Positions 2,455 to 23,115 of a stretch of 27,623 nucleotides of DNA are shown one piece after another. The notes beneath the pieces were generated by a model that made no database searches, was not told the origin of the DNA, and worked only from the letters and a program-made list of their open reading frames with translations. Numbering within the stretch: the stretch's first letter is position 1; each line of letters opens with the position of its first letter. The DNA is from a virus, in IMG/VR virus record IMGVR_UViG_3300042291_002304, positions 1-27,623 of that record; one strand, written 5' to 3'. Position numbers and translations under genes: made by a program.

Positions 2455-2457
2455 GCT

Positions 2458-6927: not shown

Positions 6928-6937
6928 AGCCTCCTAT

Positions 6938-6963
6938 AAAAAAACAGCGGGCCTCAGCCCGCT
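6938..6963 (-). terminator. Intrinsic terminator between E' and tape measure gene
   Basis: On the minus strand a perfect 7-bp stem (AGCGGGC / GCCCGCT, loop TGAG) is followed after one G by seven T. It overlaps the last codons of the E' frame and lies directly upstream of the AGGAGG of gene T. Confidence 0.85.
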
Positions 6964-7326: not shown

Positions 7327-7341
7327 GATGGTTCCCTGATC

Positions 7342-7360
7342 GGCCCGCCGTGTGCGGGCC
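7342..7360. other. Hairpin without U-tract between FII and E
   Basis: An inverted repeat GGCCCGC / GCGGGCC with a 5-base loop lies between the tail tube gene and E. Neither strand has a run of T after it, so it is more likely an mRNA-stability or processing hairpin than a terminator. Confidence 0.6.
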
Positions 7361-7367
7361 TCTGTGT

Positions 7368-7871: not shown

Positions 7872-7883
7872 CGTGTGCGCTCC

Positions 7884-9059
7884 TTAGCGGCCGAAGTCGA
7901 GGACTTCGGTGATCCATTGATTGGTCACTTCCACTTGGAAGACAGGGTTTTCAGCGGGCGGTACATCGGTAAAGCGGATGGTCCAATAAATACGTCCCTG
8001 CTCGATCGCGCTGGCGGTGTTTTTATCGGGGTCTGGAAACACTTCAAAATTAATCACCGCCCCCAGCGCTTTAAGGTCGCGCATAAAAGCATCCAGCCCA
8101 TCGGTGACATCTTTGACATAGGTTTTAGTAATCCCGCGATCCACTGCCCATTGATGGCCTTTGAGAATCGCATCCATCACCATATCCACGGTGCGCACTC
8201 GGGTGACAAAGCTCCACTTCGGATCCGCCGACAAGGTACGGTTACCCCAGAGGCGAAAGCCGCCTTCGCGAATAATGGTGGTGATATGCGCTTCATTCAG
8301 CAGATTGGCGCGGCATGTGGCATCGCCATACAGATATTCAATCGGCCGCTTGGTCCCTAACACTTCGCTAAATTCGGTATTAGACGGGCTGGCCCAGAAA
8401 CCGACACGGGCATCCTGGCGAGCAAACAAACCTGCCGTGGCTGCAGATGCGGGCGCATCGGCTTCGGCGCTCAGTTTGCTATCCCAAACCCGCAGGCCCG
8501 GATCCACCACATAGGCACGCTTGCTGCCTAGATTCTTAACAAACGCCAGCGCGGCTTCATCGTCGGTATTGGGGCCGTCAATAATGGCGATCGCCCGCAG
8601 CTTATCGGCCAGTGACACCATGGCAGAGGCCACGGCCGCACTGCTGCTGTGGCCCGGTGCAACAATCAGCCGCGGGGATTGATTGGTTTTAGATTTTGCA
8701 TCCAGCAACGCCTGTAAGCCGGTGCGCTTACCCTTGGCATCAACGCCGCCAATGATGGCACTGGTCAGCTGTGCGGGCGTTTCAACGGTTTGGCTAACGC
8801 CAACGGCCACCACCACGGCAGCAGCCTGAGCATAGATTTCTTTCAGGCGCTTGGCCATGGCGCTCTCTTCGCCAAACTGCGCCACGCCCTCCCGTAAATT
8901 GGTAATCAAAATGGGGGTATCTGCCGCAGCCAAACCCGCACCCGGTGTAAATGTATCGACAATGCCAATAATCGATGAAGACGGCAGCGCAATCACACGC
9001 GGGCCTGTATCCACCAGCGTCACCGTCACGCCATGGAAAAAACTACCTGTTCCGGCCAT
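7884..9059 (-). CDS. FI: Tail sheath protein (P2 gpFI-like)
   Basis: The protein has 391 residues (P2 FI about 395). Family features: FFHGVTVTLVDTGPRVIALP with SSIIGIVDTFTPG near the N-terminus, an ADKLRAIAIIDGPN block, FWASPSNTEFSEVLGTKRPI in the middle, and GGFRLWGNRTLSADPKWSFV with RVRTVDMVMDAILKGHQWAV toward the C-terminus. It forms the contractile sheath around the tube. CAGGAGG lies 4 bases before the ATG at 9059. An intrinsic terminator immediately upstream separates it from the fibre genes, probably to set an independent expression level for this abundant protein. Confidence 0.96.
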   Translation of the reverse strand: MAGTGSFFHGVTVTLVDTGPRVIALPSSSIIGIVDTFTPGAGLAAADTPILITNLREGVAQFGEESAMAKRLKEIYAQAAAVVVAVGVSQTVETPAQLTSAIIGGVDAKGKRTGLQALLDAKSKTNQSPRLIVAPGHSSSAAVASAMVSLADKLRAIAIIDGPNTDDEAALAFVKNLGSKRAYVVDPGLRVWDSKLSAEADAPASAATAGLFARQDARVGFWASPSNTEFSEVLGTKRPIEYLYGDATCRANLLNEAHITTIIREGGFRLWGNRTLSADPKWSFVTRVRTVDMVMDAILKGHQWAVDRGITKTYVKDVTDGLDAFMRDLKALGAVINFEVFPDPDKNTASAIEQGRIYWTIRFTDVPPAENPVFQVEVTNQWITEVLDFGR

Positions 9060-9080
9060 AGGGCCTCCTGAAAATAGGCG

Positions 9081-9102
9081 AAAAAAAACCGCCTGAGGGC
9101 GG
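9081..9102 (-). terminator. Intrinsic terminator before tail sheath gene
   Basis: On the minus strand a 5-bp stem CCGCC / GGCGG with loop CTCA is followed by eight T. It lies in the gap between the fibre chaperone gene and the sheath gene. Confidence 0.8.
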
Positions 9103-9140
9103 ATATGCTTTAAACCAATGATTTTTAAACGAGAGACTTT

Positions 9141-9602
9141 TTAAATCACTTCTATCCCTTCAACACGCTTTTGAATGAGGTCGATCGTCGCATCGGCGGC
9201 CAGCAGCACGGCATGGTGATCAAGCAATTTTTTAACGTTTTCCTTCCCTTTAAGCCGCGTATCACGGATGGCATGCAGCGCGGCATCCCAAGCATTGGCC
9301 TTGAGGATAATACTTTCAGCGGCCGCTTGAGGAGTGATGCCGCAGGCATCGGCCCAGCTCTGTACGGTGAGCGGGACTTCACCTTTAAATGCAAGGACCG
9401 CAAACGCTTTTGCCTCATGCGCCGTGCTTTTATACTCCATGGCACGTAAGGGATCGCCCACAACATCTAAACGAGCCCGATCTGCTGCCATATCAATTTG
9501 CTCGCAGGCAGCACAATATGCCGCCTCTAATGGTAAGTCTTCAAAATTGTAACCCGCGTACTGTTTGTCGTCGGTTAGGATCGTCAGGTTTGTGATTTTC
9601 AT
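9141..9602 (-). CDS. Probable tail fibre assembly chaperone
   Basis: From the ATG at 9602 (GGAAG 8 bases upstream) this is 153 residues. The longer start at 9632 would overlap the preceding gene and begins with non-family sequence. The C-terminal two-thirds (DRARLDVVGDPLRAMEYKS, VPLTVQSWADACGITPQAAA, WDAALHAIRDTRLKGKENVK) resembles the helical region of proteins encoded after tail fibre genes and thought to help them fold. Recognition is from memory of the sequence pattern. Its position right after two fibre genes fits. It carries no enzymatic motif. Confidence 0.55.
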   Translation of the reverse strand: MKITNLTILTDDKQYAGYNFEDLPLEAAYCAACEQIDMAADRARLDVVGDPLRAMEYKSTAHEAKAFAVLAFKGEVPLTVQSWADACGITPQAAAESIILKANAWDAALHAIRDTRLKGKENVKKLLDHHAVLLAADATIDLIQKRVEGIEVI

Positions 9603-9618
9603 AGTTTTACTTCCGGCT

Positions 9619-10356
9619 CTAAAGGCTGACAAGATTGGTCAAAACGTTCGTTAACGTTTCAGGCTTTGTACCCGCAGGTATTCCTGAAATAATTTTTCCA
9701 TATAAGCTTTTAGGAATCACTGTGGATCCAAAATTTAAGATGACTGAACACGCATCATGGCGAATGAGTCGGCCTACAAAATGATCAGGCACATCTAATA
9801 CGCAACGTATTAATCGCGCTTGAATGATTGAAGGACCAGTACTACTAATGAACATCATTGCGTAATAGGCGCTGATAAGTTCATTCGCTTGAAAACTGGC
9901 CCCATCAGGAAAGCCAATAATCAAGTCATAAATTTCAAGGCTCGAGCGTTCAGAAAACCAAAACCCTCCCATCCGATATGAACGGTCTTCTGGGTTAATA
10001 AACTGCTTTAAATTCATTCGCCGATTAACGCCTTCTCCTGACAAAATCAAAGCGCGGCCTTGTAACTTAATATGAAAATTCACATCGTAATCAGACAAAA
10101 GAACCGCCCTTAATGTCCCTCCATAAGGTGTTGCATCGAGTGCCTTATCTAAGGTTTTGTAAGGCTTTGTTTTTGTTCCCAAGCCTAATACATCGTCACC
10201 GATGATTGCATCCACAAAGTAAAACCTGGATAGATTAGGTACCTCAGCGACTGCATCGGCCAACGCCAGCTCGATTTCTTTCTTTTTGCCATTAAAAGTC
10301 GTGACCAGCGCAGTCGTTGCGGACACTAACTCGGCAATTTGTGATTCAAGACTCAT
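9619..10356 (-). CDS. Putative receptor-binding fibre segment, beta-helix type
   Basis: The protein has 245 residues and starts at the ATG at 10356 with GAGGAG 7 bases upstream. After a helical N-terminus (about 1-40, coiled-coil-like), a FYFVDAIIGDDVLGLGTKTK block followed by PYKTLDKAL resembles the opening of right-handed beta-helix proteins. Short alternating hydrophobic strands follow (LQGRALILSGEG, SSLEIYDLIIGFPDG). Its base composition is visibly more AT-rich than its neighbours, as is common for exchanged receptor-binding genes. The place after the H-type fibre gene is where P2 has its fibre chaperone G, so this may be the distal part of a two-piece fibre. Host receptor unknown. Confidence 0.5.
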   Translation of the reverse strand: MSLESQIAELVSATTALVTTFNGKKKEIELALADAVAEVPNLSRFYFVDAIIGDDVLGLGTKTKPYKTLDKALDATPYGGTLRAVLLSDYDVNFHIKLQGRALILSGEGVNRRMNLKQFINPEDRSYRMGGFWFSERSSLEIYDLIIGFPDGASFQANELISAYYAMMFISSTGPSIIQARLIRCVLDVPDHFVGRLIRHDACSVILNFGSTVIPKSLYGKIISGIPAGTKPETLTNVLTNLVSL

Positions 10357-10368
10357 GGTTTAAACTCC

Positions 10369-11049
10369 TCAGTGATATTTAGAAAACAACTGCTGCAAAT
10401 GAATAATGGCCGTAGCATTGCTGACGACGGTTTCTAACAAGCCATCTCGATGGCGTATCGCCAGACTTTCTGCCTCCCGCATTCGCCCTGTGAGATTCTG
10501 AATTTTGCTATTGGCCATGTCTTGCATACTCTGTTGCGTGGCCAACTGATCATCCCGCTGCACGCCCCGCAGCTGCTCGCTGATCTGTGCTGCCGCCAAT
10601 GCCGCCAGCGGCCCAGCGAGGGTCAGATTCAAACCTGCGCCGCTGGATTCCACGGTGACGCTGTTTGCGGGCAGTGCTTCTAAGAGCAGATCGTAAGCCA
10701 GTAGCAGATCCACCCCTGCCGACTTGTACGCCAGCGGGGACTTGGGATCTGACCAGACCGCGAGTAATTGGCCGCTGTCTAGATAAAAGCCCACTTCGCG
10801 CACCCAAAACTCGGTCTTGCCATCGGCAATCGCGGTTAAGTGCAGATGATTGGTGCCTAGCTTTTCGCCATCGCTGATGGCATGGCGGGCTTTTTCGGTG
10901 CGTAGCTTGGTTTGGGTTTGCGCTGGGCTGTAGCCACTATCGCCCAGTGCGATATGGGTGATTTTTCCTTGAAAACCATCCTGAGTTGCATTAAAAATCG
11001 CCGCCAAACCGGCTTCGGTAATGACTGGTTGTAAAAGTGCGGTCGTCAT
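10369..11049 (-). CDS. H: Tail fibre protein, P2 gpH-like N-terminal part
   Basis: The start at 11049 overlaps the gpI stop as ATGA and has GGAGG 4 bases upstream; the longer frame to 11157 reads back into gene I. It has 226 residues. The N-terminal ~130 match the phage tail-fibre attachment domain (PVITEAGLAAIFNATQDGF, KITHIALGDSGYSP, EFWVREVGFYLDSGQLLAVW). The rest is an Ala/Gln-rich helical region. P2 gpH has 669 residues, so this fibre is very short and lacks the receptor-binding tip repeats. The adjacent gene (9619-10356) may supply the tip. Confidence 0.8.
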   Translation of the reverse strand: MTTALLQPVITEAGLAAIFNATQDGFQGKITHIALGDSGYSPAQTQTKLRTEKARHAISDGEKLGTNHLHLTAIADGKTEFWVREVGFYLDSGQLLAVWSDPKSPLAYKSAGVDLLLAYDLLLEALPANSVTVESSGAGLNLTLAGPLAALAAAQISEQLRGVQRDDQLATQQSMQDMANSKIQNLTGRMREAESLAIRHRDGLLETVVSNATAIIHLQQLFSKYH

Positions 11050-11768
11050 CGGGCCTCCATAGTGACGTGAAGTACCGCTCTGGCACGGCTGGCGCTGGCT
11101 AGGGCCAGCCCACTTTGCGTCGATAGCGTCATCGAAACCGTTGCGGCGTGATGGCAAACCGCACGCAATTGCGCAGCGGATGCCAGCGCCACAGGCTGCC
11201 TGAGCGTTTTAGGTTGTACGGCCAGCGCCGTCGCCGAGCCACGGACTACGGCGCGAGCTTGATGGGCATTGGCCAATAAAAATGGCGATTGATCAAAACG
11301 AGCGCCGACTTTAAAACGGTAATGGCTGCGCTCATTTTTAACCGCATCCACCATGCGTTTCAGTCGCTCGTAAAGCGCTGGGGTCAACAGTGCACCGTCA
11401 TGGCCATCGTGGTTTTCATTCACCCACGCCGTTAGGCCAAAGGTAAATGGCGCTGCGCCTGGTATGTCCTGCCATTCTTTAAACTCAACCGAAACGCCCA
11501 GCGCCCCCAAGGCCCGGCGCACGGCTCCCGCTGTGCCTTTGTGTTTATGGATCTCAATTGAACGGTTAATCAACGTGCGGCGCGGGCCTTCGGTAAGGGC
11601 TTCATCCCAGCCATCCACCGAACGCTCCCAAGCGAGCCAGGGTAAGAAAGCAGCTGGGCAGCGATGAGCATCGGCCAACCAGCTCAGTGAGGTCGGATTA
11701 ACATCCGGCTCGCTGGCTTTGACCAGCGCACGCTCCAGCGATGTAGCATTAGGCGGTAGTAAACTCAT
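11046..11768 (-). CDS. I: Baseplate/tail protein I (P2 gpI-like) with C-terminal extension
   Basis: The protein has 240 residues, against 176 in P2 gpI. Residues 1-165 fit the Tail_P2_I family (LLPPNATSLERALVKASEPD, PAFLPWLAWERSVDGWDEAL, RTLINRSIEIHKHKGTAGAV, then RRALGALG). It is a baseplate wedge component linking J to the fibre. The last ~70 residues are an extension with three RAV-containing units (HQARAVVRGSA, AQLRAVCHHAA, SRARAVLHVTM). The start overlaps J as ATGA (11765-11768) and its end overlaps H. Confidence 0.92.
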   Translation of the reverse strand: MSLLPPNATSLERALVKASEPDVNPTSLSWLADAHRCPAAFLPWLAWERSVDGWDEALTEGPRRTLINRSIEIHKHKGTAGAVRRALGALGVSVEFKEWQDIPGAAPFTFGLTAWVNENHDGHDGALLTPALYERLKRMVDAVKNERSHYRFKVGARFDQSPFLLANAHQARAVVRGSATALAVQPKTLRQPVALASAAQLRAVCHHAATVSMTLSTQSGLALASASRARAVLHVTMEAR

Positions 11769-12730
11769 GCCGCCACCAAACTGATCGCATCACATTGCGG
11801 AAAATGCCGCACATCACAGCGGATATCCTCAGCCGGCTCAGTCAAAATCACCCGACTGACCCCAGCCACATGCAGCGCCGCAAAAATGGCCGAACGAGAC
11901 AAAGTACGGCCCAGCTTGCGTGTACTGGCCAGTGTGCTATTCAGCCCCGCCCGCGCCTCTGCCAGCACGGTTTGTGAATCTGGGCCGTTTTCAATTTCGA
12001 TCACGGCTTGCACTCGAAATCCCGTAGCTTGGCCTGCGCTGACCCGCGGCCGGTCGGTCAGTGGCCGCACATCATCGGCAGACAAAGCCACTTGTACGAC
12101 AGCCGCCAGCTCATCGCCATGGATACTCGAATCCATCGGCAGCACCGCAATCGACACATCGCCCGGCAAAGGGGCGATCAGGCCAGCAGCATCGCTACAC
12201 ACTAAAACCAGCGCCCCTGCTGGCAGCTGACTGCGTAGCGCATCACTGATCGGCACCGCTGCAAATGTCGGTGAATCCACCGAGGCATCCGTCACCCAAG
12301 CCGACGCGCTCAAACTATGAAATAAATACGCCCCACGTGAACCGGCCACCGATAAGCCTTCCAGCGCCATCTGGCAGCGATAACGCAGACGCTCATCTTC
12401 TTCATAAACCGCCTCAATAGGCGGCTCTGCATCTGGGTTAGCAGGCGTCATCAACAGCCGGCTAACGCCATAATCGGCGGCCTTATTGTCCAAATCAGTG
12501 CCCCGCGCATAGGCCAGCATGGTGGATACGGCCGCATCATTGACCCAGGCCCGCAGCATCAGCTCCTGATAAGCCGATAATTCCAGCAGCTTCACTACTG
12601 GGTCGCTTTCCAGCACGGCGCTCCAATCGGGGTAAATCGCCTTAAACTGCGCCAACTTATGGGCATAGATCGCCTCAAAATCTAGCGTTTCCAGCAATTG
12701 AGGCGGCGGGAGTTGGCTTAAATCGATCAT
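11765..12730 (-). CDS. J: Baseplate assembly protein J (P2 gpJ-like)
   Basis: The protein has 321 residues (P2 J has 302). Baseplate_J family signs: IDLSQLPPPQLLETLDFEAI, SAYQELMLRAWVNDAAVSTM, LAYARGTDLDNKAADYGVSR, RYRCQMALEGLSVAGSRGAY and a C-terminal GVSRVILTEPAEDIRC. It forms the wedge ring of the baseplate with W and I. It is coupled to both neighbours by 4-base ATGA overlaps. Confidence 0.95.
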   Translation of the reverse strand: MIDLSQLPPPQLLETLDFEAIYAHKLAQFKAIYPDWSAVLESDPVVKLLELSAYQELMLRAWVNDAAVSTMLAYARGTDLDNKAADYGVSRLLMTPANPDAEPPIEAVYEEDERLRYRCQMALEGLSVAGSRGAYLFHSLSASAWVTDASVDSPTFAAVPISDALRSQLPAGALVLVCSDAAGLIAPLPGDVSIAVLPMDSSIHGDELAAVVQVALSADDVRPLTDRPRVSAGQATGFRVQAVIEIENGPDSQTVLAEARAGLNSTLASTRKLGRTLSRSAIFAALHVAGVSRVILTEPAEDIRCDVRHFPQCDAISLVAA

Positions 12731-13053
12731 GCCGTCACCTCCAGCAACATGCTGTCGCCCAGATAGATCCCTGAAATTTTAATATTCACCCTGCCATCGA
12801 TCACAGAAATAATCGTGACCTTGCTGACTTTAATCCGCGGCTCCCAGCGCACCAGATTGCGGGCGATTTCCGCTTGCGCCGCAGCAATCCAGCCCGCATT
12901 CACCGGCAAATCCACCATGCGTGGCAAATGGCTGCCATATTCTGGCCGCTCACGACGGCTACCCAAGGGCGTCGTCAAAATATCGGCAATGGATTGAGCC
13001 AGATGAGCGGAGCCAGTCATAAGCAGCCCTGTTGTGCGATCCATGCCCATCAT
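12727..13053 (-). CDS. W: Baseplate protein W (P2 gpW / T4 gp25-like)
   Basis: The protein has 108 residues (P2 W has 115). It has the gp25-like lysozyme-fold wedge pattern: HLAQSIADILTTPLGSRRER, EYGSHLPRMVDLPVNAGW, NLVRWEPRIKVSKVTI. The EPR motif is conserved in this family. It initiates sheath assembly at the baseplate. A GAGG 9 bases before the ATG at 13053 supports this start. The end overlaps J as ATGA. Confidence 0.95.
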   Translation of the reverse strand: MMGMDRTTGLLMTGSAHLAQSIADILTTPLGSRRERPEYGSHLPRMVDLPVNAGWIAAAQAEIARNLVRWEPRIKVSKVTIISVIDGRVNIKISGIYLGDSMLLEVTA

Positions 13054-13057
13054 CGAA

Positions 13058-13261
13058 TTAAGCCTCGCTGGCAGGCGGCAAGATCAAACGCTCAAAGTCT
13101 GGGCGCTGATCCAGATGAGCAATCAGTGCGTCATCATCGCTACTGATGGCACGATTGATCACCGCAAATGAGCGGCCATCATCCAAAATGAGCGTTCGTG
13201 ATCGAAAAGCCTTATCCATAAAGGAAACGGGCTGAATCGGTGTATTACTAGGCTTAGCCAT
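13058..13261 (-). CDS. Small conserved-looking tail-region protein of unknown function
   Basis: From the ATG at 13261, with AGGAGG 7 bases upstream, it has 67 residues. The longer frame to 13342 passes through a terminator hairpin and is not credible as coding. The sequence contains DKAFRSRTLILDDGRSFAVI and an acidic helical tail (SDDDALIAHLDQRPDFERLI). It has no membrane segment or Cys motif. It lies between baseplate genes V and W, and a terminator sits just before it. P2 has no gene here. I do not recognise its family; a small baseplate or regulatory accessory is possible. Confidence 0.7.
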   Translation of the reverse strand: MAKPSNTPIQPVSFMDKAFRSRTLILDDGRSFAVINRAISSDDDALIAHLDQRPDFERLILPPASEA

Positions 13262-13279
13262 ATTGGCCTCCTGCAGATG

Positions 13280-13314
13280 TAAAAACGCCCCAGAGCAATG
13301 AAGCGCCGGGGCGT
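13280..13314 (-). terminator. Intrinsic terminator before the small gene upstream of W
   Basis: On the minus strand a 7-bp stem (ACGCCCC / GGGGCGT) with a 16-base loop, itself containing a short pairing, is followed by four more T. It would end transcripts arriving from gpV after the higBA insertion point. Confidence 0.7.
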
Positions 13315-13399
13315 ATGTAAAGATCAAAGGATGAGGACGCATTAAAAATACAAACTTTTACCCCTCGCATTTCGTGTTGTGTGCGTATACACTACACAG

Positions 13400-13681
13400 A
13401 TGATTAAAACGTTCAACCACAAAGGGCTCGAAGCGTTTTTCCTAACTGGTAGCAAAGCAGGGATTCGCCCAGATCACGCAAGTAAGCTGCGATTATTACT
13501 AGCACGACTTGATACGGCTAGCGGTGCACCAGATATGAACGTTCCCAGCTGGCGCTTACACCCCTTAAAAGGGGATCTGACGACACATTGGGCCGTCACG
13601 GTAAATGGCAATTGGCGCTTAACCTTCCGCTTCCTACCGGATGGCAACGTGGAATTAGTCAATTATCAAGACTATCACTAG
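13400..13681 (+). CDS. higB: HigB-type toxin (RelE-fold mRNA interferase)
   Basis: From the ATG at 13400 it has 93 residues, the usual HigB size; an upstream alternative start at 13379 adds 7 atypical residues. The C-terminal half shows the family signature: WRLHPLKGDLTTHWAVTVNG, NWRLTFRF, then VNYQDYH. HigB toxins cleave mRNA on the ribosome. It is followed 12 bases later by its antitoxin. There is no Shine-Dalgarno before the ATG. A TATACA at 13386-13391 could be a -10 element, which would leave almost no leader. Transcription opposes the phage tail operon, indicating a separately controlled accessory module. Family recognition is confident. Confidence 0.92.
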   Translation: MIKTFNHKGLEAFFLTGSKAGIRPDHASKLRLLLARLDTASGAPDMNVPSWRLHPLKGDLTTHWAVTVNGNWRLTFRFLPDGNVELVNYQDYH

Positions 13682-13693
13682 GAGTACCAAATA

Positions 13694-13966
13694 ATGCGTA
13701 TGCATAACCCGCCTCACCCAGGCGAAGTTCTAAAAGAGTGGTTTGCCGAGGTCAGCATAACCACGGCCGCTTCCAAGCTTGGAATTACCCGTGCCCACCT
13801 GTCGCGGATTCTAAATGGCCATGCGGGCATCAGTGCCGAAATGGCATTGCGCCTTGCCGCCTGCTTGAATACCTCGCCAGAAAGTTGGCTGCAAATGCAA
13901 ATGAATTACGACTTATGGCAGGCAGAACAGCGGCCTTTACCGCCCATCGAACGCTTAGCAGCCTAA
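13694..13966 (+). CDS. higA: HigA-type antitoxin (XRE family)
   Basis: The protein has 90 residues with the standard HigA opening ([15 protein letters not shown]) and a helix-turn-helix ([20 protein letters not shown], then [20 protein letters not shown]). It should bind HigB and repress the higBA promoter. The ribosome site AGGAG overlaps the toxin stop region. This toxin-first order is characteristic of higBA. Located between tail genes V and W on the opposite strand, the pair may stabilise the prophage or limit superinfecting phages. Confidence 0.93.
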
Positions 13967-14038
13967 GCTCTAAGCCAAATGGCGCAGCAGGGACGTGAAA
14001 GATCAAGACCCCATGATTAAAACACGGCCCTGCCCACA

Positions 14039-14656
14039 TCAAACCGCATCACTCGTCATCTGCCCATCACCCTGCTCCTTGTGCGCGTGTTTCATCAAAC
14101 TAATCTCTCCCGCGCTCACGTCGCCTTTGGCTTCAATGGCACCACCGAAGCTGGCTTTCGCACCACCTTTGGCCAGATGATTAATGGCGGCACCTACCGT
14201 CAGATTCTGGGTCACGATCACATCATCGGCATCCAGGGTAATGGTGGTGGCTTTAACCGTGACGCTTTCTGCCGCATTCACGATCACGGTTTTACAACCA
14301 TCGATCAGGGCTGCACCAGCGGTAAAGTCATACTCGATTTTGCAACCATCGGGCATCTGCCACGCCACCACATTGGCTCGCCCGTCATGGCCCAGCGCAT
14401 CGGTGTAAAAACCTACCAGCGCAAAACCATTGTCTGGCTCCCCTGACGGATTCAGCATTAATGCTTGCTCACCCACCGAAGGCAGGCGCCAATGCTGTGC
14501 TTTACCCGCAGCTAAACCCAGCCAAGGGATCCAACTTGATACCCAACCATCCGAGGCGATTCTCACTCTGGCATTATCCGCATCCACAGCAGACACCACA
14601 CCGGGAATCAGCAAGCCAGACAACATGCGGTCTAATTCTGATAATTCGTAACGCAT
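14039..14656 (-). CDS. V: Baseplate spike protein V (P2 gpV-like)
   Basis: The protein has 205 residues (P2 V has 211). An OB-fold N-terminal domain (LLIPGVVSAVDADNARVRIA, PWLGLAAGKAQHWRLPSVGE, QALMLNPSGEP) leads to a beta-helix stem (AALIDGCKTVIVNAAESVTV). The C-terminal apex has H190-x-H192 in MKHAHKEQGDGQ, matching the HxH motif that binds iron at the spike tip in P2-like phages. It forms the trimeric membrane-piercing needle. It is the first P2-type tail gene after the lambda-type head block. Confidence 0.93.
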   Translation of the reverse strand: MRYELSELDRMLSGLLIPGVVSAVDADNARVRIASDGWVSSWIPWLGLAAGKAQHWRLPSVGEQALMLNPSGEPDNGFALVGFYTDALGHDGRANVVAWQMPDGCKIEYDFTAGAALIDGCKTVIVNAAESVTVKATTITLDADDVIVTQNLTVGAAINHLAKGGAKASFGGAIEAKGDVSAGEISLMKHAHKEQGDGQMTSDAV

Positions 14657-14667
14657 CGTGCCTGGGC

Positions 14668-15168
14668 CTATAAATCTTCCGGTTTAAAATACGCATCCAC
14701 AGGGCCACTGCCTGTTGTGATGCCCAGCACTAGCTCGCCCAGCTCAGGAATAGGCCATTCTTCTACGTCTCCCACATGCAGCTCGTGCTCAAAGGTCACG
14801 CACCAGACCAGATATCCTTCCAGCTCGCCTTTAAAGCCATCTGGGGCAACGCTTTGAATCCGCGCCAAACCCACTGGCTGGCCCCAAGTTTTAAAATGAA
14901 TGGCGGCGGCCAAGCGGCAAACTAACTGCCGGATATGTAATTCAGCATCGGCACGGGTTGGATCCATCACCAGCCGCGCTTCAAAGCGGGCAATTAAAGA
15001 CAGCTCGCCATTCCCTGGCTGCGTACCATCACTAAATTCAGCCAGCTCGATCAGCAGTAAAGGTAAACTGACCCGCCCTTCTAAATCCGGATAGGTCAGC
15101 ACTTCCATCTTCGGAAAAACACCCTGTAGCTGCTGCTCTATAGCCCGGTGTAAATCAGCAATATCCAT
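14668..15168 (-). CDS. Probable tail completion/terminator protein
   Basis: The protein has 166 residues. Its sequence (AIEQQLQGVFPKMEVLTYPD, VSLPLLLIELAEFSDGTQP, an ARFEARLVMDP strand, YLVWCVTFEHELHVGD) has the alternating strand/helix layout of small proteins that cap the tail, like lambda U or Mu gp37. It follows Z in the position lambda gives to U. The start overlaps the Z stop as TGATG. The assignment rests on position and layout more than on a firm match. Confidence 0.6.
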   Translation of the reverse strand: MDIADLHRAIEQQLQGVFPKMEVLTYPDLEGRVSLPLLLIELAEFSDGTQPGNGELSLIARFEARLVMDPTRADAELHIRQLVCRLAAAIHFKTWGQPVGLARIQSVAPDGFKGELEGYLVWCVTFEHELHVGDVEEWPIPELGELVLGITTGSGPVDAYFKPEDL

Positions 15169-15719
15169 CAGCGCGCCCTCCCAGCCAGCTTATGCAATTC
15201 ATAATTTAATTCCTGCTGCATCAAGGTCTGCAGGCGACCAGGTATCAAACCCGAAATTCTGGAAAAAGCCGTATTGGCCATCAGATCCACCTCGACCTTG
15301 GCCCGCCTGATCGGTAGGCGAGCCTTTGAGCTGCGCTGATAAAGCTTACCGTTAAAACGTGAGTTTTTAGAGGGCATAAACGCGGCTTCAAAATGCCACG
15401 ACTTCACCCGATAGCCTCTGGCGGTTTTGATGGGTTTACCCAGCTCATCCGCATTCAGGGCCGAAATCCCAAACCAGATTTTGACGGCTGGCCCGCCATT
15501 GCTGCCTTCCCGCCATTGTTTGTCGTAGATCCGGACGCGATACACAATCATCTTGCGGCGGATACCGCGATCTTTTAACTCCCGCAGCAAATGCGTACGC
15601 GTCCACAAGGCTGTTTTGCGGACTGCCCGTTTTGTCGCACGCTCCAGCGCATGAAGACTCAGCCCAGAGGCCAAGGCTTTAATCGATTCATCATCAAAAT
15701 CAATCTTGACATCAATCAT
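15168..15719 (-). CDS. Z: Minor tail protein Z (lambda gpZ-like)
   Basis: The protein has 183 residues (lambda Z has 192). It is basic and begins with an acidic short strand (VKIDFDDESIKALASGL), then HALERATKRAVRKTALWTRT. Later come KIWFGISALNADELGKPIKT, the YRVKSWHFEAAFMP segment and LPIRRAKVEVDL, the Minor_tail_Z pattern. It helps join or complete the tail. The start overlaps FII by 8 bases. Retention of this lambda tail-family gene places the lambda/P2 module boundary after it. Confidence 0.85.
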   Translation of the reverse strand: MIDVKIDFDDESIKALASGLSLHALERATKRAVRKTALWTRTHLLRELKDRGIRRKMIVYRVRIYDKQWREGSNGGPAVKIWFGISALNADELGKPIKTARGYRVKSWHFEAAFMPSKNSRFNGKLYQRSSKARLPIRRAKVEVDLMANTAFSRISGLIPGRLQTLMQQELNYELHKLAGRAR

Positions 15720-16014: not shown

Positions 16015-17010
16015 TTACACCTTAAGTTTGATCACCGCACCGGGCCGAGTGCAGAGATTGAGTGGATTAGATTGCGATTCCATATCAATGCCCCTGCCGT
16101 GCTGCATGGTTTCTTGCGAGGTGTAATACGGCAGGCCATTGGTGTTCACGGTTTCGATATGATCTGCTGGCGCAAAGCTCGTCACAAACAACTCGGGTAC
16201 GCCTTCCGGTACTGCATAGGCTTCGTCATCACCGACAAAGGCCTTACCACCTACTTTGCCGCGATAACGCTCAAAAACGCAGCCGCCAAATTCAATCACT
16301 TCCCGCGGCTCATTGCGTAATGCAGCGGCCAGCTCACTATTGAGATAAGTGGCTTCAAAGGAGTCATTGGAGAGCAAGGCTGACCAGAAATTTTTACCGC
16401 AAAACACCCGCACGCCAGAATGCGTGAGCGCGCCAAGGGCATCTTCGATCGCCTCATGAATTTCTAGGCACTTACTGCGTAAATGCATCTCTGGCTTAGC
16501 CAGCTCCATCGCAATCTCGACCTGTTTAATACCAAATCGCTCATATAAATTAAGCAACGGTGTTTGGCCATCTGCATCCAGAATTACGCCCTTGATAGCA
16601 CCGATGCGGTGAAACTCAATCGTGGCATCCAGCTGGCGGCGATGTTTTGCCAAGCGTTTAAAAACAAGCGTTTGAACGGACTCCATTTCGGTCTCACTGC
16701 CAAACGCGCGCAAGCCTTGCACTTCATCTGCGCGAATGCTGGAGCGCTGTGGCAGGTGAATCGTATTAAATGGAATCATCTGACGCTTGGTTCCGCCAAC
16801 CGCCTGCCCAGGTGCTCCGCGCTCACCGGCTGACACCAGCGCCAGCGTATCGCCATCTTTTTCAATCTGCACCGTGATGGTGGTGATGCCTTCTTCTTGA
16901 AACAGACCCAGCTTCCCGATGCGCCCAGGCACATGCGGCATGCTATTAATCGCCGCGGTCAGTGTGGACATAGAAAATGCGCCGTCATTAAAAACATCGA
17001 TGCTAGCCAT
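16015..17010 (-). CDS. E: Major capsid protein E (lambda gpE-like)
   Basis: The protein has 331 residues (lambda E has 341). Phage_cap_E signs: FSMSTLTAAINSMPHVPGRI, GLFQEEGITTITVQIEKDGD, an APGQAVGGTKRQMIPFNTIH block, VQGLRAFGSETEMESVQTLV and a C-terminal EVIEFGGCVFERYRGKVGG. It forms the procapsid shell. GGAAG precedes the ATG at 17010, and an intrinsic terminator separates it from D, as expected for the most abundant product. Confidence 0.96.
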   Translation of the reverse strand: MASIDVFNDGAFSMSTLTAAINSMPHVPGRIGKLGLFQEEGITTITVQIEKDGDTLALVSAGERGAPGQAVGGTKRQMIPFNTIHLPQRSSIRADEVQGLRAFGSETEMESVQTLVFKRLAKHRRQLDATIEFHRIGAIKGVILDADGQTPLLNLYERFGIKQVEIAMELAKPEMHLRSKCLEIHEAIEDALGALTHSGVRVFCGKNFWSALLSNDSFEATYLNSELAAALRNEPREVIEFGGCVFERYRGKVGGKAFVGDDEAYAVPEGVPELFVTSFAPADHIETVNTNGLPYYTSQETMQHGRGIDMESQSNPLNLCTRPGAVIKLKV

Positions 17011-17028
17011 TAGCGGCTTCCTTAAATG

Positions 17029-17050
17029 AAAAAACCCAGCAGCGCTGGGT
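17029..17050 (-). terminator. Intrinsic terminator between D and capsid E
   Basis: On the minus strand a perfect 7-bp stem (ACCCAGC / GCTGGGT, 3-base loop) is followed by four further T. It could end or protect the D transcript and reset expression before the capsid gene. Confidence 0.8.
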
Positions 17051-17074
17051 TATAGGTAGAGGGGGAGATCAGCC

Positions 17075-17422
17075 TTAGCGGACGATAATGTGCAGCTCGG
17101 CCAGTTGCGCCGTGACCAGCGCATCTAAGCCGGTCAATTCGGCCGCACTGACCTCGGCCAGCCGAGACGTAATCGTCACTTGCAAGGGCGCTTCGCGCTC
17201 TCCTGCTGGCGCATACAAGATGGCGGCGGCTTTGACCACCGCCTTACTGCCTTCAGCCGGTGCGGCATAGGCCGAATAGAGCTGCGTTTTGTCATCAAAA
17301 GAGAGAATCTGCCCAGAAGGCAAAGCAGGGCCAGCGGCCAGTTGCGCCAGATCGGCGCTCAGCGTGCCCACGGTCGATAACAGATACTGACCGGCGCGGG
17401 CCTTTTGAGTCATGATAGTCAT
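17075..17422 (-). CDS. D: Head decoration protein D (lambda gpD-like)
   Basis: The protein has 115 residues (lambda D has 110), or 112 from the second Met. HDPD-type signs: an AGQYLLSTVGTLSADLAQL region, LPSGQILSFD, then KAVVKAAAILYAPAGEREAP and LDALVTAQLAELHIIVR at the end. It binds as trimers on the expanded capsid to stabilise it. The start overlaps the protease/scaffold gene as ATGA. Confidence 0.9.
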   Translation of the reverse strand: MTIMTQKARAGQYLLSTVGTLSADLAQLAAGPALPSGQILSFDDKTQLYSAYAAPAEGSKAVVKAAAILYAPAGEREAPLQVTITSRLAEVSAAELTGLDALVTAQLAELHIIVR

Positions 17423-18567
17423 GATAAACCTCGGATCGTGATGGGATTAGCCGCCGGAGTGCGGCGCTGTGCATAAATACTGTGGGCGTTCGGTCCACTG
17501 TTGACCGGTTTAATCGGCGTATCTTCAGGCGGCGTGGCGTCCAGTTCAGCCCCCGCCGCCGTAACTAATTTATTAAACAGACGCTCCCGCGCCGCTTCGA
17601 TGCTGACACCAGCAGCAATCAGGCTAGCCGCCATTTCTGGCAGCTTAGCCGTCAGCGTCATATCGCGAATGGCGATCGCTTCATTGACGCTATTGCGCAC
17701 CGCCTGCTCGCTGGCCAGCGCCGAAACCGCCACCACCCGCATCACCGCGACACTGGGTAATTGAGCGCTATTACATAATTCAGCCGCCAGCGCCGCCATG
17801 GCCACGGTATCTACCGCTTGAATCACCGGCGCGGGCTCAGGGGGTAAATCAGGCGGTACGATCTCTGCCGAATTCTTTAGCGCAGCCATCAATGCCGCAG
17901 GCGCATTACCGATCCGGCCTACCGCTGCGGTCATTGCCGCACTGGCCTGCATCTTAACGGTGGGTAAAATCTCATCGGCAAAGCCCAGCGCAAGCGCCTC
18001 CTGTGCGGTCAGCCATGTGGTTTCATCCATCATTTTGGACAGCGTTTCTACATCGACGCCGCTGGCTTTTACGCGGTAACACGCAATCAGGCAATGCTTG
18101 GCTTTATCCATAAAGTCCGCCACATCACGCAAATCACCCGACTCCCCTACCGCCACTGTGGCTGGGTTATGAATCATCAGCATCGCGTTATCCGGCATCA
18201 CTACTTTGTGAGCGCCCATCGCAATCACACTGGCGATACTGGCGGCAAGGCCATCAATACGCGCCGTCACGCGTTCACCCATGCGGCACAACACGTTATT
18301 GATGGCGATGCCATCCCAGACATCGCCACCGATACTGTTAATGGCCACCACCACTGGGCGCTTGCCATCATCCACCGCATTCAGATCACGGATAAAATCA
18401 GCGGCGCGAATCCCCCAGTCACCGATCTGATCGTATAAAAACACTTCGATCGGTGCATCGGGCTTGCCTTCCGCTGCATTGCGAATGCTGTACCAGCTGC
18501 TGCCGCTGCCATCGCCAACCGATGCGGCACTATTCATCAGCCGTGGATTGTTATTTTTCATCTTCAT
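17419..18567 (-). CDS. C: Head maturation protease, ClpP-type, with C-terminal scaffold-like region
   Basis: The protein has 382 residues (lambda C has 439). The ClpP/crotonase-type domain spans about 35-215: VVVAINSIGGDVWDGIAIN, then catalytic Ser110 in GLAASIASV, His133 in MLMIHNPA and Asp181 in MDETTWLTAQEALALGFADE. After Pro-rich residues (about 235-245) an Ala-rich helical tail follows. In lambda the equivalent tail is also made separately as scaffold Nu3 from an internal start; internal Mets exist here, but no start can be singled out. It overlaps the portal gene end by 17 bases. Confidence 0.93.
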   Translation of the reverse strand: MKMKNNNPRLMNSAASVGDGSGSSWYSIRNAAEGKPDAPIEVFLYDQIGDWGIRAADFIRDLNAVDDGKRPVVVAINSIGGDVWDGIAINNVLCRMGERVTARIDGLAASIASVIAMGAHKVVMPDNAMLMIHNPATVAVGESGDLRDVADFMDKAKHCLIACYRVKASGVDVETLSKMMDETTWLTAQEALALGFADEILPTVKMQASAAMTAAVGRIGNAPAALMAALKNSAEIVPPDLPPEPAPVIQAVDTVAMAALAAELCNSAQLPSVAVMRVVAVSALASEQAVRNSVNEAIAIRDMTLTAKLPEMAASLIAAGVSIEAARERLFNKLVTAAGAELDATPPEDTPIKPVNSGPNAHSIYAQRRTPAANPITIRGLS

Positions 18568-20020
18568 CGTTTTCCTTTAGAGATCCATCCGGCGCCTCAA
18601 CAAGGCGGGCATCAGAATCAAAATGCAGATTCATCCGGTCTGCCCGGGCGTTGTCTTCTTCAATCTCACGATCGATCGTTTCAGGGTCTTCACCGCGTTT
18701 AAGAATGACGGCAGAACGGCTGGTAAACCCAGCCCGCACCAGCTTTTGATCGGCCTGCACGTCTTGTACCGGGTGCAAATACGGCCAGCCTTGCGGCACC
18801 CAATTAGTGCGGCGATAAACGCGTGGATTTTTGGCATAGCCCGGCAATACAATCGCTCCCGACAGCACTGCCAAATCCATCCAGGCCTTGCGAATAGGCC
18901 GACAAAGCTGGTGTACAAAAATACCGTGCTGCCGTTGCTCCACCCTGCGGCGAAATTCATTCAGAATCACCCGCATCACCCGATCACTGATATTGCGTAA
19001 GTCGCCAGAGAGAAGCTCATAAGGCAAGCCAATCCCAGCGGCAACCGCAGCCAGTTGCTGGCGCATAAATTCGTCATAGTTATTGCCAGCATCCGGTGGT
19101 TTAGAAAACGCTACCTCTTCGCCCGGCTCCAGCTCCTGCATGGTGCCAGGCTCTAAACCCACCATTGAAAAGCCCTGCGTTTCAGTGGGCTGCATCCCTG
19201 GGAACATCGAGTTCTCGGGATTGGGCTTACTGATAAAACCGGCAAACAGATTGGCCACCTCTTGCCTGAACAACACCGCATCATCGAATTCATCCAGCGT
19301 TTTCATGCGCAGCAAGACAGGCGCCAGATGCGGCACACCCCGCAGCTGCCCAGGTCGGGTGGGTTCAAAGATATGTAGAATCTGGCTGGCATCGATTTGG
19401 ACTAGGTCGTTATAAGCGCCCTGACCCCGCTCGCCTGGATGGTTGCGATACATCCAATAAGCAACACGCTGGCCGGTTTGATTAAATTCAATCCCCTGCC
19501 GAATATTGTTGCCATTGGGCGCCTTGCCATTTTTGTCATGCGGGATAAACTCCGGCTCGAGGATTTGAATCTGCAAAGGCACGGCCAAGTCTTCTTTTAA
19601 GCTACGCGGCCGCAGGCGTACAAAGCACTCGCCGGACTCAAACATCGAACGAGCCACTAGCAGCTGCTGGCCATAAAAATCCAGCTGGCCGTCCGCATCC
19701 GATTCCTCGCACCAATCGCCCCATAAATCCTGTAATTCACGGCGAATATTCGCGTCCGAATGCTTAGGCATCGGCACAATGCCGGTGCCGATATGATTAC
19801 TGCCCAGCTTATCCAACGCCGTGGCGGCGTAAGGATCATTACGAACTGCCGCTCGGCTGCGATTACGCAGCGTTTGTAAACCAGCACTGCCGGTGCTGAC
19901 CGGGCCGTTACCGCCGGGCTGCCAGTTGGCCGCCCGACGCCCTTGCCCTGCGCCGTCATAACTATTTTTTAAACGCGCAGGCAGGATAAAACCTTTAGAA
20001 GCCAATGCCGAATAAGCCAT
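18551..20020 (-). CDS. B: Portal protein (lambda gpB-like)
   Basis: The protein has 489 residues (lambda B has 533). Phage_portal_2 signs: RNRSRAAVRNDPYAATALDK, GSNHIGTGIVP, ESGECFVRLRPR, QIQILEPEFIPHDKNGKAP and a C-terminal EDPETIDREIEEDNARAD. It forms the dodecameric vertex through which DNA is packaged. The start shares one base with the gpW stop (TGATG). Confidence 0.96.
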   Translation of the reverse strand: MAYSALASKGFILPARLKNSYDGAGQGRRAANWQPGGNGPVSTGSAGLQTLRNRSRAAVRNDPYAATALDKLGSNHIGTGIVPMPKHSDANIRRELQDLWGDWCEESDADGQLDFYGQQLLVARSMFESGECFVRLRPRSLKEDLAVPLQIQILEPEFIPHDKNGKAPNGNNIRQGIEFNQTGQRVAYWMYRNHPGERGQGAYNDLVQIDASQILHIFEPTRPGQLRGVPHLAPVLLRMKTLDEFDDAVLFRQEVANLFAGFISKPNPENSMFPGMQPTETQGFSMVGLEPGTMQELEPGEEVAFSKPPDAGNNYDEFMRQQLAAVAAGIGLPYELLSGDLRNISDRVMRVILNEFRRRVEQRQHGIFVHQLCRPIRKAWMDLAVLSGAIVLPGYAKNPRVYRRTNWVPQGWPYLHPVQDVQADQKLVRAGFTSRSAVILKRGEDPETIDREIEEDNARADRMNLHFDSDARLVEAPDGSLKENDEDEK

Positions 20021-20229
20021 CAGATCCCCTTTCCGGCGTGAAACATCCGGTGCTGACGCGTTTTAGCATGGCCCGCTTGTGCCGACAGATCACTGATCGC
20101 GAGATTTCTGGCCGCAATCAGCTCAGAAATATTGCGGTATTCCACCCGGCGGTCTGCGTACTGAATCACCCGCTCGCCTCGAGCAATGGCTTTATTGATT
20201 GCATCCAGATCTTGCTGAGTAAATGCCAT
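20020..20229 (-). CDS. W: Head-tail joining protein W (lambda gpW-like)
   Basis: The protein has 69 residues (lambda W has 68). Pattern: MAFTQQDLDAINKAIARGER, VIQYADRRVEYRNISELIAA, with helices enclosing a beta-hairpin (RVEYRN), the gpW fold. It plugs the portal after packaging so the tail can attach. It sits between TerL and portal, as in lambda. Confidence 0.94.
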   Translation of the reverse strand: MAFTQQDLDAINKAIARGERVIQYADRRVEYRNISELIAARNLAISDLSAQAGHAKTRQHRMFHAGKGI

Positions 20230-20230: not shown

Positions 20231-22180
20231 TTAACGTCGCTTCAAATAGCCAGAGCGCGCCACTCGGCGAGCTGCAATGGGAGGGTCAGAAACAAAAGAC
20301 CCCGCAGTTGCGGGGTCTCGTCGGGGTGATGCGTGGGCTTGCGCCGGTTTGGGCTCATCAAATAAGCCGGTTTGCGCATAGCGCATCTTCAGCGCATTCC
20401 AATCGGCCTGCTGAAAACGGTGCAAGCCCATGTAATGCGCCATCGCTAAGCTATATACGGTTAAATCCAGCACCTCATTACGGTCTGATTTGGCCTTGGT
20501 CCAGTCGGTGATTTCACGGCCTTTAATAAAGCGTCGAATCTTGCGCTCTACCGTCAGCTGATCGTAGTACTCGCTAGGCAGATCTTTACTAAAGTGCTGA
20601 GCGCCCGGCCCGTCGAGTAGCTTAAAGCGGTTATAAAGCCAGTCTTTGGCAGTGTCGGTACCGATCATCCACAGCTCACAGCCACCTTTATCGGTGGTCC
20701 CGCGCCAAGTGACATCGACCTTGCTGGCCCGCGCCGCCAGAATCGGCCGGCCCCGTTTGCTCTCGCCCTTAATCGCCAGCACATGGCGATAACGGCGCAG
20801 CCTGCAGAACTGATAAACCTCCTGCGTGTGATGGCCCCCGGTATCGATGGCCGTCGCAGAAATCCCCATACTCTGGCCATGCGGGTGAATAAATTCCTTC
20901 TTTAATTCTTCATCCAGCATTTCCCATGAGCGCTCTTCGGCCGGATCACACATCATCACCCGATGATCGATGGTCCAGCTTTCCAGCCCTTCGCCCCAGC
21001 CTTTAATCAACAGCTCCAGCCGATTGGCCTGCACGTCAACCGATGCGGTCAGAATCAGCACACCCAGCGGAAGACTGCGCAAAGCATAGTCCTCGGCCCG
21101 CGCCATCAACTCGCTGCCTCGGGTGCGCTCTTGCGCGTTATCCCAGACCTGAGCCAGCCGCGTATTGTAAAAAACCTGCATTGGCTCTGGGTCTCCCCGC
21201 TGCAAGGCAATGGCGGCTTTTTCATATTGCTTGAGTAATGAGCCCCAAGAGACCCAACCGAGCGGCATATTTAAAGCATTAATCTGGAAGGATTCGGTTT
21301 CCCCGTCCCCCACCGCACCGGCCCGCCACTCACCAGCGGGCAGCATTGCTGTTTTATGGTGCTCATCAATCAGGCAGCCACTTGCAGTACATACATAGTG
21401 AGCCTCGCTGTGCTCGCTATTCCAGCGCAACTGCTCAAATACCAGCGTCTGAAACTCGCCGCAATGCGGGCAGCCCACAAAAAACCGCTGCTGCGTGCCT
21501 TCCAGATACAGATCATTAATCCGGCTGGAGCCTTCAAGCGTGGGCGAGCTGGAATAATAAATTTTAGCGTTACGGCCAAAGGTACTGGTGCGCGCCTCGG
21601 CCAGATCAACCGGGTCGCCCTCTTCGTTGACATTGCGTTCCCAGCGATCAATCTCATCGCCATATAAATAGCGCGCACTGACTTCGGCTAAATTGGCGGC
21701 CGAGCCCGCCGTGGTAATCATTAACGTGCCGCCGGCAAATTCTTTGGTATCGATGGTATTACGGCTATCGCGGCTACGTGGGGAGGCGACTTTTTCGCGC
21801 AGCACGGGGATGGCATCGATGTTTTTACCGATCCGGCCAGACAAACGCTTGGCCAGATTTAAGGACGGCTCCAGCGCCAGAATATTGCTGGGCGCCATAT
21901 GGATCACTGCGCACATCCAGTTTAAAAACACCTGCGTCTTCAGCATCTGCGAAGCCCCCATCACCACCACCCGGCGGCAAGGATGCGTCGGAGACAGTAC
22001 CCGCATCACCTGCTGCGCATAAGGCGTGCGACGGGTTAAATACTTGCCTGGCTCAGCGGCGCCCGAATCAGTGGGAATCCGTTGATACTGGTCGGCCCAT
22101 TCATCAATCCATAAGGCCGGATCAGGCATCAGGCCAGCGGCAAAGCCATCCAGATAAGTGGCAAATCCGTCTGCATACAT
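20231..22180 (-). CDS. A: Terminase large subunit (lambda gpA family)
   Basis: The protein has 649 residues (lambda A has 641). The packaging ATPase has a Walker A-like GASQMLKT at residues 75-82 and Walker B YLYGDE at 171-176. Further family blocks are SSPTLEGSSRINDLYLEG, FFVGCPHCGEFQTLVFEQLR (zinc-type CPHC) and LGVLILTASVDVQANRLELL, with the nuclease region starting near TAIDTGGHHTQEVYQFC. With TerS it cuts concatemers at cos and drives DNA into procapsids. A terminator-like hairpin lies inside its last codons. Confidence 0.97.
   Translation of the reverse strand: MYADGFATYLDGFAAGLMPDPALWIDEWADQYQRIPTDSGAAEPGKYLTRRTPYAQQVMRVLSPTHPCRRVVVMGASQMLKTQVFLNWMCAVIHMAPSNILALEPSLNLAKRLSGRIGKNIDAIPVLREKVASPRSRDSRNTIDTKEFAGGTLMITTAGSAANLAEVSARYLYGDEIDRWERNVNEEGDPVDLAEARTSTFGRNAKIYYSSSPTLEGSSRINDLYLEGTQQRFFVGCPHCGEFQTLVFEQLRWNSEHSEAHYVCTASGCLIDEHHKTAMLPAGEWRAGAVGDGETESFQINALNMPLGWVSWGSLLKQYEKAAIALQRGDPEPMQVFYNTRLAQVWDNAQERTRGSELMARAEDYALRSLPLGVLILTASVDVQANRLELLIKGWGEGLESWTIDHRVMMCDPAEERSWEMLDEELKKEFIHPHGQSMGISATAIDTGGHHTQEVYQFCRLRRYRHVLAIKGESKRGRPILAARASKVDVTWRGTTDKGGCELWMIGTDTAKDWLYNRFKLLDGPGAQHFSKDLPSEYYDQLTVERKIRRFIKGREITDWTKAKSDRNEVLDLTVYSLAMAHYMGLHRFQQADWNALKMRYAQTGLFDEPKPAQAHASPRRDPATAGSFVSDPPIAARRVARSGYLKRR
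20290..20318 (-). terminator. Terminator-like hairpin inside the 3' end of the terminase gene
   Basis: On the minus strand a perfect 9-bp stem (AGACCCCGC / GCGGGGTCT, counting the flanking pair) with loop AACT is followed by TTTTGTTT. It is translated as part of the terminase C-terminus (DPATAGSFVS), so it would act as an attenuator unless ribosomes or antitermination prevent folding. Confidence 0.6.
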
Positions 22181-22190: not shown

Positions 22191-22781
22191 TTAGTTCATG
22201 GCGCGATCCATATCGTCTTTGCCCAGTTTAGAAACGTCTTCCAGCGTCTGACGTAAACGCTCAGTTAACAGCTGCTCCAGCGCCCACGGATCCGTAATCG
22301 CGGCCAGATCAGACGAAATTTGTTTGGGTACACCCAGCAAGGTATCGCGCAAAAGACGGCCATAGCGGTGGGCCGCATCGTGTACAGCCTGCCGATCTAC
22401 CGTCTGCTGGCAGACACGCTCGTATTCCACCTTGGCCAGTTTGGCCAGATAGCCTTCACGGCTGGTGCGGGCTTCCTGAAAGTCAGCAAACATCAGCTCG
22501 CTAGGCAAAGGCGCTACAGCAGTTTTAACCGGCAGCACCGGCCTATCGGCGTGGACTTCGTCATACACATCGCGCTGAATCCTCGCCTGCTCATGCCGCT
22601 GCCGCACGCCCTCTTTTGCGGGGTCGATGGTTTTACCGATGCGCTCAAGGGTAGCGGCGTAATCGACTTTTTTACCATCGGGGGAAAGAACTAAACGGCC
22701 TGTTTTTAACAGCTTGGTCACATAGCTGGGCGACCAGCCTTGCGAATCCGCAAAGGCCTTCTTGCTCAGATATGGATCCAT
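22191..22781 (-). CDS. Terminase small subunit (Nu1-like)
   Basis: The protein has 196 residues (lambda Nu1 has 181). The N-terminal winged helix-turn-helix (KKAFADSQGWSPSYVTKLLK, TGRLVLSPDGKKVDYAATLE) is the DNA-binding domain that recognises cosB. A central Arg/Glu helix region and a C-terminal helical part that should bind TerL follow. It ends 10 bases before TerL. A cluster of GTGAAA repeats lies directly before its start, consistent with binding sites for this protein. Confidence 0.88.
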   Translation of the reverse strand: MDPYLSKKAFADSQGWSPSYVTKLLKTGRLVLSPDGKKVDYAATLERIGKTIDPAKEGVRQRHEQARIQRDVYDEVHADRPVLPVKTAVAPLPSELMFADFQEARTSREGYLAKLAKVEYERVCQQTVDRQAVHDAAHRYGRLLRDTLLGVPKQISSDLAAITDPWALEQLLTERLRQTLEDVSKLGKDDMDRAMN

Positions 22782-22783
22782 GC

Positions 22784-22846
22784 TTTCACCACTTATTTTA
22801 GGATTTCACTCGATTTCACCTGAGGTGAAATTTCACTAACTTCACC
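22784..22846 (-). repeat. GTGAAA repeat cluster before TerS (candidate cosB or operator)
   Basis: On the plus strand TTTCAC units begin at 22784, 22804, 22814 and 22831, with a weaker TTCACC at 22841. The inverted form GTGAAA lies at 22825-22830. A perfect 9-base inverted repeat with a 1-base spacer (ATTTCACCT / AGGTGAAAT) covers 22813-22831. Several spacings are near 10 or 20 bases, so sites lie on similar faces of the helix. This resembles an array of protein-binding sites next to the terminase gene; the protein is not shown by the sequence. Confidence 0.65.
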
Positions 22847-22868
22847 CGGCAGCCACTAAGAAGAAGCT

Positions 22869-22887
22869 GCGAGTCTTAGGCCCCGTA
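22869..22887 (-). other. Candidate lambda-like cosN packaging site
   Basis: On the minus strand TACGGGGC-N6-CTCGC matches, with identical spacing, the two flanks of the lambda cosN sequence as I remember it (TACGGGGC GGCGAC CTCGC). A lambda-style cut would leave a 12-base 5' overhang GGGCCTAAGACT. It lies about 90 bases before TerS, with the GTGAAA repeats between them, as cosB is in lambda. Confidence 0.55.
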
Positions 22888-23017
22888 CTGCCTCGGAAAG
22901 TGCCAGGGTCCCCAGCGGGGATTCTCAGCAACGGATGAAAGGTCTAAGGGGCTTGGCTCTTTCAGACTTTCTCCTTCGGGGGTTTAATAGAACAGACAAA
23001 CAGCACGCCCACCAAAT

Positions 23018-23045: not shown

Positions 23046-23115
23046 TAAGATCACAATAAGAAAGCGCCTGTGTCCCCGCAGAATAAACCAAGGGCCATGA
23101 CTAACACTTATCTGA

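Follow-up and report, generated by a model that had tools for sequence, protein, structure and literature searches.

A predicted lambda-type cos site with 12-base cohesive ends upstream of the terminase genes of a contractile-tailed phage

Terminase genes and the sequence upstream of them

The window, that is the whole stretch of viral DNA analysed here (IMG/VR record IMGVR_UViG_3300042291_002304, 27,623 nucleotides), is a 27.6-kb fragment that carries, on its minus strand, a small and a large terminase gene, a lambda-type head block and a P2-type contractile tail block (Table 1). Across 617 aligned positions the large terminase shares 28% identity with lambda gpA. For the small terminase, BLAST detects no similarity to lambda Nu1, and a comparison with the Nu1 profile (hhalign) gives only a weak match (E 0.004, probability 8%, 33 columns of the helix region); neither single-sequence nor profile searches returned a solved structure for either terminase. 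The small terminase had been called Nu1-like from the sequence alone, a description that stands for its position and for a probable winged-helix function and fails for similarity to Nu1 itself. Read in gene orientation, the DNA upstream of this gene consists of the cosQ-like element GGGGACCCTGG, 16 nt, ACG/GGGCCTAAGACT/CGC (slashes mark the predicted nicks), a TTAGTGG box and a series of GTGAAA repeats. As the packaging block is of lambda type, a lambda-type cos is to be expected at this place.

Table 1. Features of the predicted cos region and of the adjoining gene blocks, in gene orientation
Feature	Position	Strand	Remarks
cosQ-like element GGGGACCCTGG	22903..22913	-	(nearly) invariant in the family, 15-16 nt from ACGGGGC; sister homology ends just upstream
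CTTTCCG, in the variable cosQ-cosN spacer	22894..22900	-	retained by close sisters only
cosN, TACGGGGC-N6-CTCGC	22869..22887	-	exact lambda flanks and spacing; 10/16 bp dyad-symmetric
Predicted nick, minus strand	22884/22883	-	
Predicted nick, plus strand	22872/22871	+	
Predicted 12-base 5' cohesive end GGGCCTAAGACT	22872..22883	-	register from the LPPA36 12-nt repeat and the family alignment
Box CTTAGTGGCTG (family GTTAGCGG, +12 to +19 from the cut)	22850..22860	-	from the conservation profile, outside the search pattern
First cosB site GTGAAATTTCAC (predicted)	22825..22836	-	bp 48-59 from the first overhang base, the N15 R3 position
cosB repeat GTGAAA (predicted)	22814..22819	-	bp 65-70
cosB repeat GTGAAA (predicted)	22804..22809	-	bp 75-80
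cosB repeat GTGAAA (predicted)	22784..22789	-	bp 95-100
Small terminase gene, 196 aa, recognition-helix motif PSYVTK	22191..22781	-	PHROG 57 terminase small subunit, 5e-26
Large terminase gene, 649 aa, lambda gpA type	20231..22180	-	PF05876 and PF20454
Lambda-type head block: gpW-like adaptor, portal, protease, D decoration, capsid E	16015..20229	-	
P2-type contractile tail block: sheath, tube FII, tape measure, baseplate J, W/gp25, V, hub D	1390..15719	-	

The predicted cosN lies about 90 nt from the small-terminase gene and is the sole copy of TACGGGGC-N6-CTCGC in the window at fewer than three mismatches, the chance expectation for an exact match being ~0.0013 (whole window, both strands). 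When compared with the junction of the lambda genome (J02459), where the right end ...TTACG meets the left end GGGCGGCGACCTCGCGG, the flanks and their spacing are the same whereas the 6-base centre is unlike, just as the sequence-only reading had proposed. The predicted overhang is thus identical to that of lambda at 6 of its 12 bases (positions 1-4, 11 and 12), with the differing centre at positions 5-10; positions 5 and 6, at which the window departs from lambda, are nearly constant among the enteric lambda relatives examined. A two-fold symmetry of 10/16 bp is a criterion for cosN (PMC9026076), and the same value is found in the window and in lambda; such dyad symmetry is fitting for paired large-terminase subunits. 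CG stands on either side of the cut, at both nicks, with one exception among 45 family representatives. Taken by itself, the broad motif TACGGGGC-N6-CTCGCRG is weak evidence of such a site, as in viral contigs it matches chiefly enteric lambda relatives and, in several cases, unrelated sequence. Among these contigs, L026 4484 and L090 carry TACGGGGC followed by TACGTA or TATGCA and then CTCGCAG, share a common downstream stretch, are unrelated to enteric lambda, and possibly represent a further cos family.

The segment CTTTCCG had been thought to recall lambda cosQ, and this assignment is abandoned. It lies 6 nt from TACGGGGC in the window versus 14 nt in lambda, sits in the spacer between the two conserved elements and is variable across the wider family; the conserved candidate is GGGGACCCTGG instead. 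The 7-bp cosQ GGGTCCT of enteric lambda-like sites is absent, and GGGGACCCTGG occupies a comparable position with a different sequence; the distance from the nick to GGGACC in the window and to GGGTCC in lambda agrees within ~2 nt. We infer from its position and conservation in the alignments that GGGGACCCTGG acts as cosQ. On the other side of cosN, the GTTAGCGG box is an extra of the window family relative to lambda cos.

Between cosN and the small-terminase gene, where lambda has cosB, GTGAAA occurs five times in 70 nt against 0.03 copies expected, which bears out the repeats noticed from the sequence alone; the first site pairs a direct copy (22831-22836) with an inverted one (22825-22830), and three further direct copies follow. 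The essential terminase site R3 of N15 lies at bp 48-59 (PMC4669245) and R3 of lambda at bp 50-65 (PMC4669245, PMC9026076), so that the first repeat pair of the window, at bp 48-59, falls within the R3 range of bp 48-65 (PMC4669245) and is a predicted site by position. In both lambda and the window the first cosB site is ~50 bp from the cut; however, the complex R3-IHF-R2-R1 arrangement of lambda-like cosB, which N15 also lacks, is not seen, the window having instead an array of 6-bp repeats packed into ~100 bp. N15 shares with the window the place of the first terminase site and the lack of a required IHF site, but N15 requires a single R3 site whereas the array of the window has 4-5 repeats at roughly helical spacing. 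As the cos regions of 141 loci contain no match to the simple IHF consensus, the IHF-bent cosB of lambda is probably not used here.

Conservation of the site and classes of its repeats

In five sister loci, the small terminases of which are 92-95% identical to that of the window, the entire block from GGGGACCCT to the repeats is retained. Conservation in sister phages had been set beforehand as a test of the cos reading, and the motif is conserved. In four of these loci sister homology ends just upstream, at 22916-22921, and in L014 it ends at 23046; this edge places the start of the conserved block at the cosQ-like element and not at CTTTCCG. Homology returns at ~24250-24375, and from 24858 onward in 4/5 loci, which makes the break a slot for exchangeable cargo within the phage; an attachment site at the edge of the conserved block was ruled out for the same reason. 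The slot adjoining cosQ (22917-24250 in the window, with counterparts in L010-L014) holds a PLD-family protein with a weak DrmC match in the window, an FRG-domain protein that matches the candidate defence family PDC-S15 in L014, a Sel1-repeat protein in L010, and short ORFs in L011 and L013. One sister is located in a Lake Pavin Pseudomonadota MAG. Two copies of the family cos, with overhang centres CTAAGA and CTAGGA, are found in L456 and L457, from a MAG shared with L010 and L011, suggesting two related prophages together in one MAG.

Viral contigs were searched for a wider family with the pattern GGGACCCTGG, a gap of 10-20 nt, ACGGGGC and YCGC. Although gaps of 10-20 nt were allowed, the matches listed have a cosQ-cosN gap of 15 nt (117 matches) or 16 nt (8 matches), and a large-terminase homologue, mostly 53-70% identical to that of the window, lies downstream in 101 of the 103 listed matches with >900 nt of downstream sequence. 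In a non-circular set, for which loci were fetched by the large terminase only (at least 800 nt upstream, n = 68), cosQ and cosN are present in 67 loci, 653-728 nt before the large-terminase match, L340 being the exception. Positions outside the search pattern are conserved as well, namely A at overhang position 10, the GTTAGCGG box and an AGTTAGT/AGCTTAGT stretch. At the DNA level, no relatives of the cos region of the window, nor of two further family sequences, were found among 50,697 phage records, and one family locus searched among plasmids gave no relative. Tail type varies among carriers of such a cos: a contractile sheath is present in 24 of 30 records bearing the cos, whereas none is detectable in the Pseudomonas-clade records L330 (49 kb) and L332 (42 kb), which have a related cos, and this argues that the tail type is independent of the cos. 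A lambda-like cos in a P2-tailed prophage had been noted from the sequence alone; the cos itself stands, but its place beside a P2-type tail is unremarkable, because cos travels with the terminase and the head and packaging block is entirely of lambda type.

The repeats fall into five classes, GTGAAA (window), GTGAAC, GTTGAC, GTTAAC and TTGAAA, and for the first four, most loci have their first direct repeat beginning at bp 48 or 49. Loci of the TTGAAA class have a CTGAAA variant at this place. Among the matches listed, the recognition-helix hexapeptide of the small terminase predicts the class of the repeats without exception (141 of 141 unique loci), a figure obtained with a repeat list chosen after the sequences had been seen and one that could partly reflect mere linkage, as cosB adjoins the small-terminase gene. 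Stronger evidence for an association of helix and repeat is the joint switching seen on a tree of the small terminase from which the DNA-binding part had been removed: this tree requires the repeat class to have changed at least 10 times, and in close pairs helix and repeat switch jointly, as in L329 (KPYVSK, GTTAAC) and L330 (KSYVSK, GTGAAC). Overhang class and repeat class are also associated (permutation test), yet a given overhang is combined with several repeat classes and vice versa, which points to exchange across the two sides of cosN.

A different kind of arrangement is seen in seven loci (L230, L248, L306, L403, L404, L408 and L410), in which an intact family cosQ-cosN devoid of repeats lies upstream of the small terminase, and a second lambda-type cos, GGTTCCT ... 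CACG/GGTGCGCAGACT/CGCGG, follows ~65 nt downstream of it. This second cos goes with a terminase pair of the Nu1 type (37% to Nu1 for the small subunit). These double-cos loci look like the scar of a terminase swap, and L407 and L405 seem to be further decayed forms of such a scar.

Genome ends of sister Pseudomonas phages

The nearest deposited phages are the Pseudomonas aeruginosa phages Lodos, Turba, LPPA36 and Haddon, the large terminases of which are 57-60% identical to that of the window. Their cos regions have the same architecture and register, with GTTAAC repeats and a RAYVSK helix; unlike the window, their cosQ is GGGGCCCCTG(A/G) and their cosN is AAG/GGTGATTCGAAC/CCCG. The LPPA36 record OR188719.1 (L003 177-260), deposited as a 'complete genome', has, at its cos, sequence from BGISEQ adapters and a barcode, the adapter sequences being those confirmed in PMC10788357. 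In OR188719 a copy of GGTGATTCGAAC, exactly 12 nt long, stands on either side of the two adapters. This duplication is the product expected of end-repaired 12-base 5' cohesive ends and is in support of such ends, and its register is the overhang position assigned by the family alignment. One record end of Presto (PQ533662) begins at exactly that overhang base, and its other end gives no match to a cos end. The Haddon contig (PQ571161), assembled from virion DNA (PMC11841053), ends on one side 8 bases inside the overhang, and on the other side a fold-back breaks at the first base past the overhang. As all of these are deposited assemblies of a sister clade rather than reads, the end evidence is supporting and not final. 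A cut in the Pseudomonas phages at TTC/GAACCCCGTTCT/CGC, where CTCGC is matched, was also considered and is ruled out by the cosQ spacing, the wider alignment and the LPPA36 repeat, the correct register lying 8 nt upstream at AAG/GGTGATTCGAAC/CCCG.

Packaging mechanism, alternatives and the wider family

Taken together, positions 22781-22913 of the minus strand very probably constitute a complete lambda-type cos with predicted 12-base sticky ends. The core of the sequence-only reading, a lambda-type cos with cosN at this place, a predicted 12-base overhang and the GTGAAA repeats as cosB, is strongly supported by the lambda flanks, by the conservation in the family and by the association of helix and repeat. 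Lambda cos and the site in the window are alike in the order of their subsites, in the ACG/GGGC...CT/CGC flanks, in the 12-base spacing and in a large terminase of the gpA family. The site very probably works like lambda cos and has most of its defining features; it is kept apart from the enteric lambda-like group because its cosQ and cosB differ. In lambda, the small terminase bound to cosB anchors the large terminase at cosN, where both strands are nicked 12 bases apart, and cutting at the next cos requires cosQ (PMC4669245). By analogy, we infer that the DNA of this phage is bound and cut in this way and that cosQ has the corresponding role: the small terminase would bind the GTGAAA repeats, first at the N15 R3 distance, and would place the large terminase over cosN, which would then introduce nicks staggered by 12 bases at ACG/GGGCCTAAGACT/CGC to give 5' cohesive ends, whereas the upstream GGGGACCCTGG would serve in recognition of the next cos as packaging stops.

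Three other readings of the block were weighed against a functional cos. That it is an ancestral cos, now non-working, in a defective prophage is improbable; the record is admittedly a 27.6-kb fragment, but the terminase genes are open and intact, as are cosQ, cosN and the repeats, and the locus still obeys the constraints of the family. A headful (pac) start, at which the small terminase binds the repeats, no precise 12-base cut is made and packaging stops once the head has been filled, would account for the repeats, as these also occur near small-terminase genes at pac sites. A headful phage, however, has no need of a conserved cosQ and of two cosN halves at fixed spacing, the large terminase belongs to the lambda gpA family, and the 12-nt repeat of LPPA36 together with the record ends of Presto and Haddon indicates fixed ends in the sister clade; we therefore hold such a start to be very improbable.

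The position of the block just upstream of the late operon would also suit a promoter or an operator formed by the repeats, and the break in sister homology right upstream is of the kind seen at an attachment site, in which case the likeness to cos would be incidental. The return of homology further upstream speaks against an attachment site, and the lambda cosN halves with their spacing, the fixed bp-48 register and the association of helix and repeat fit a terminase, with no other DNA-binding gene seen to co-vary in the data examined, so that a regulatory or attachment element is extremely improbable.

Returning to the reading as a functional cos, the loci compared here likely form a large family of lambda-type cos sites in which the large terminase reads a fixed cosQ-cosN core and the small terminase reads swappable repeats by a short code, with cosN as the joint of exchange. 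Under this likely code, PSYV[ST]K would read GTGAAA, PS[YT]ITW would read TTGAAA, KSY[VI]SK would read GTGAAC, [KR][PA][YW]VSK would read GTTAAC and [KR]Q[HY][IV][SG]K would read GTTGAC, and the members of the family would mostly be prophages with lambda-type heads and contractile tails. No description of this cos family was found in the open literature, subscription journals lying outside the search, and the family is apparently large and undescribed. Packaging specificity through a terminase helix and its cosB site is known from a few enteric phages (lambda, 21 and N15). With at least five repeat classes, and at least 10 switches between them, beside a cosQ-cosN core that stays constant, this one family makes the recognition code directly testable, and provides a sequence rule by which genome ends and packaging compatibility may be predicted for many uncharacterised prophages.
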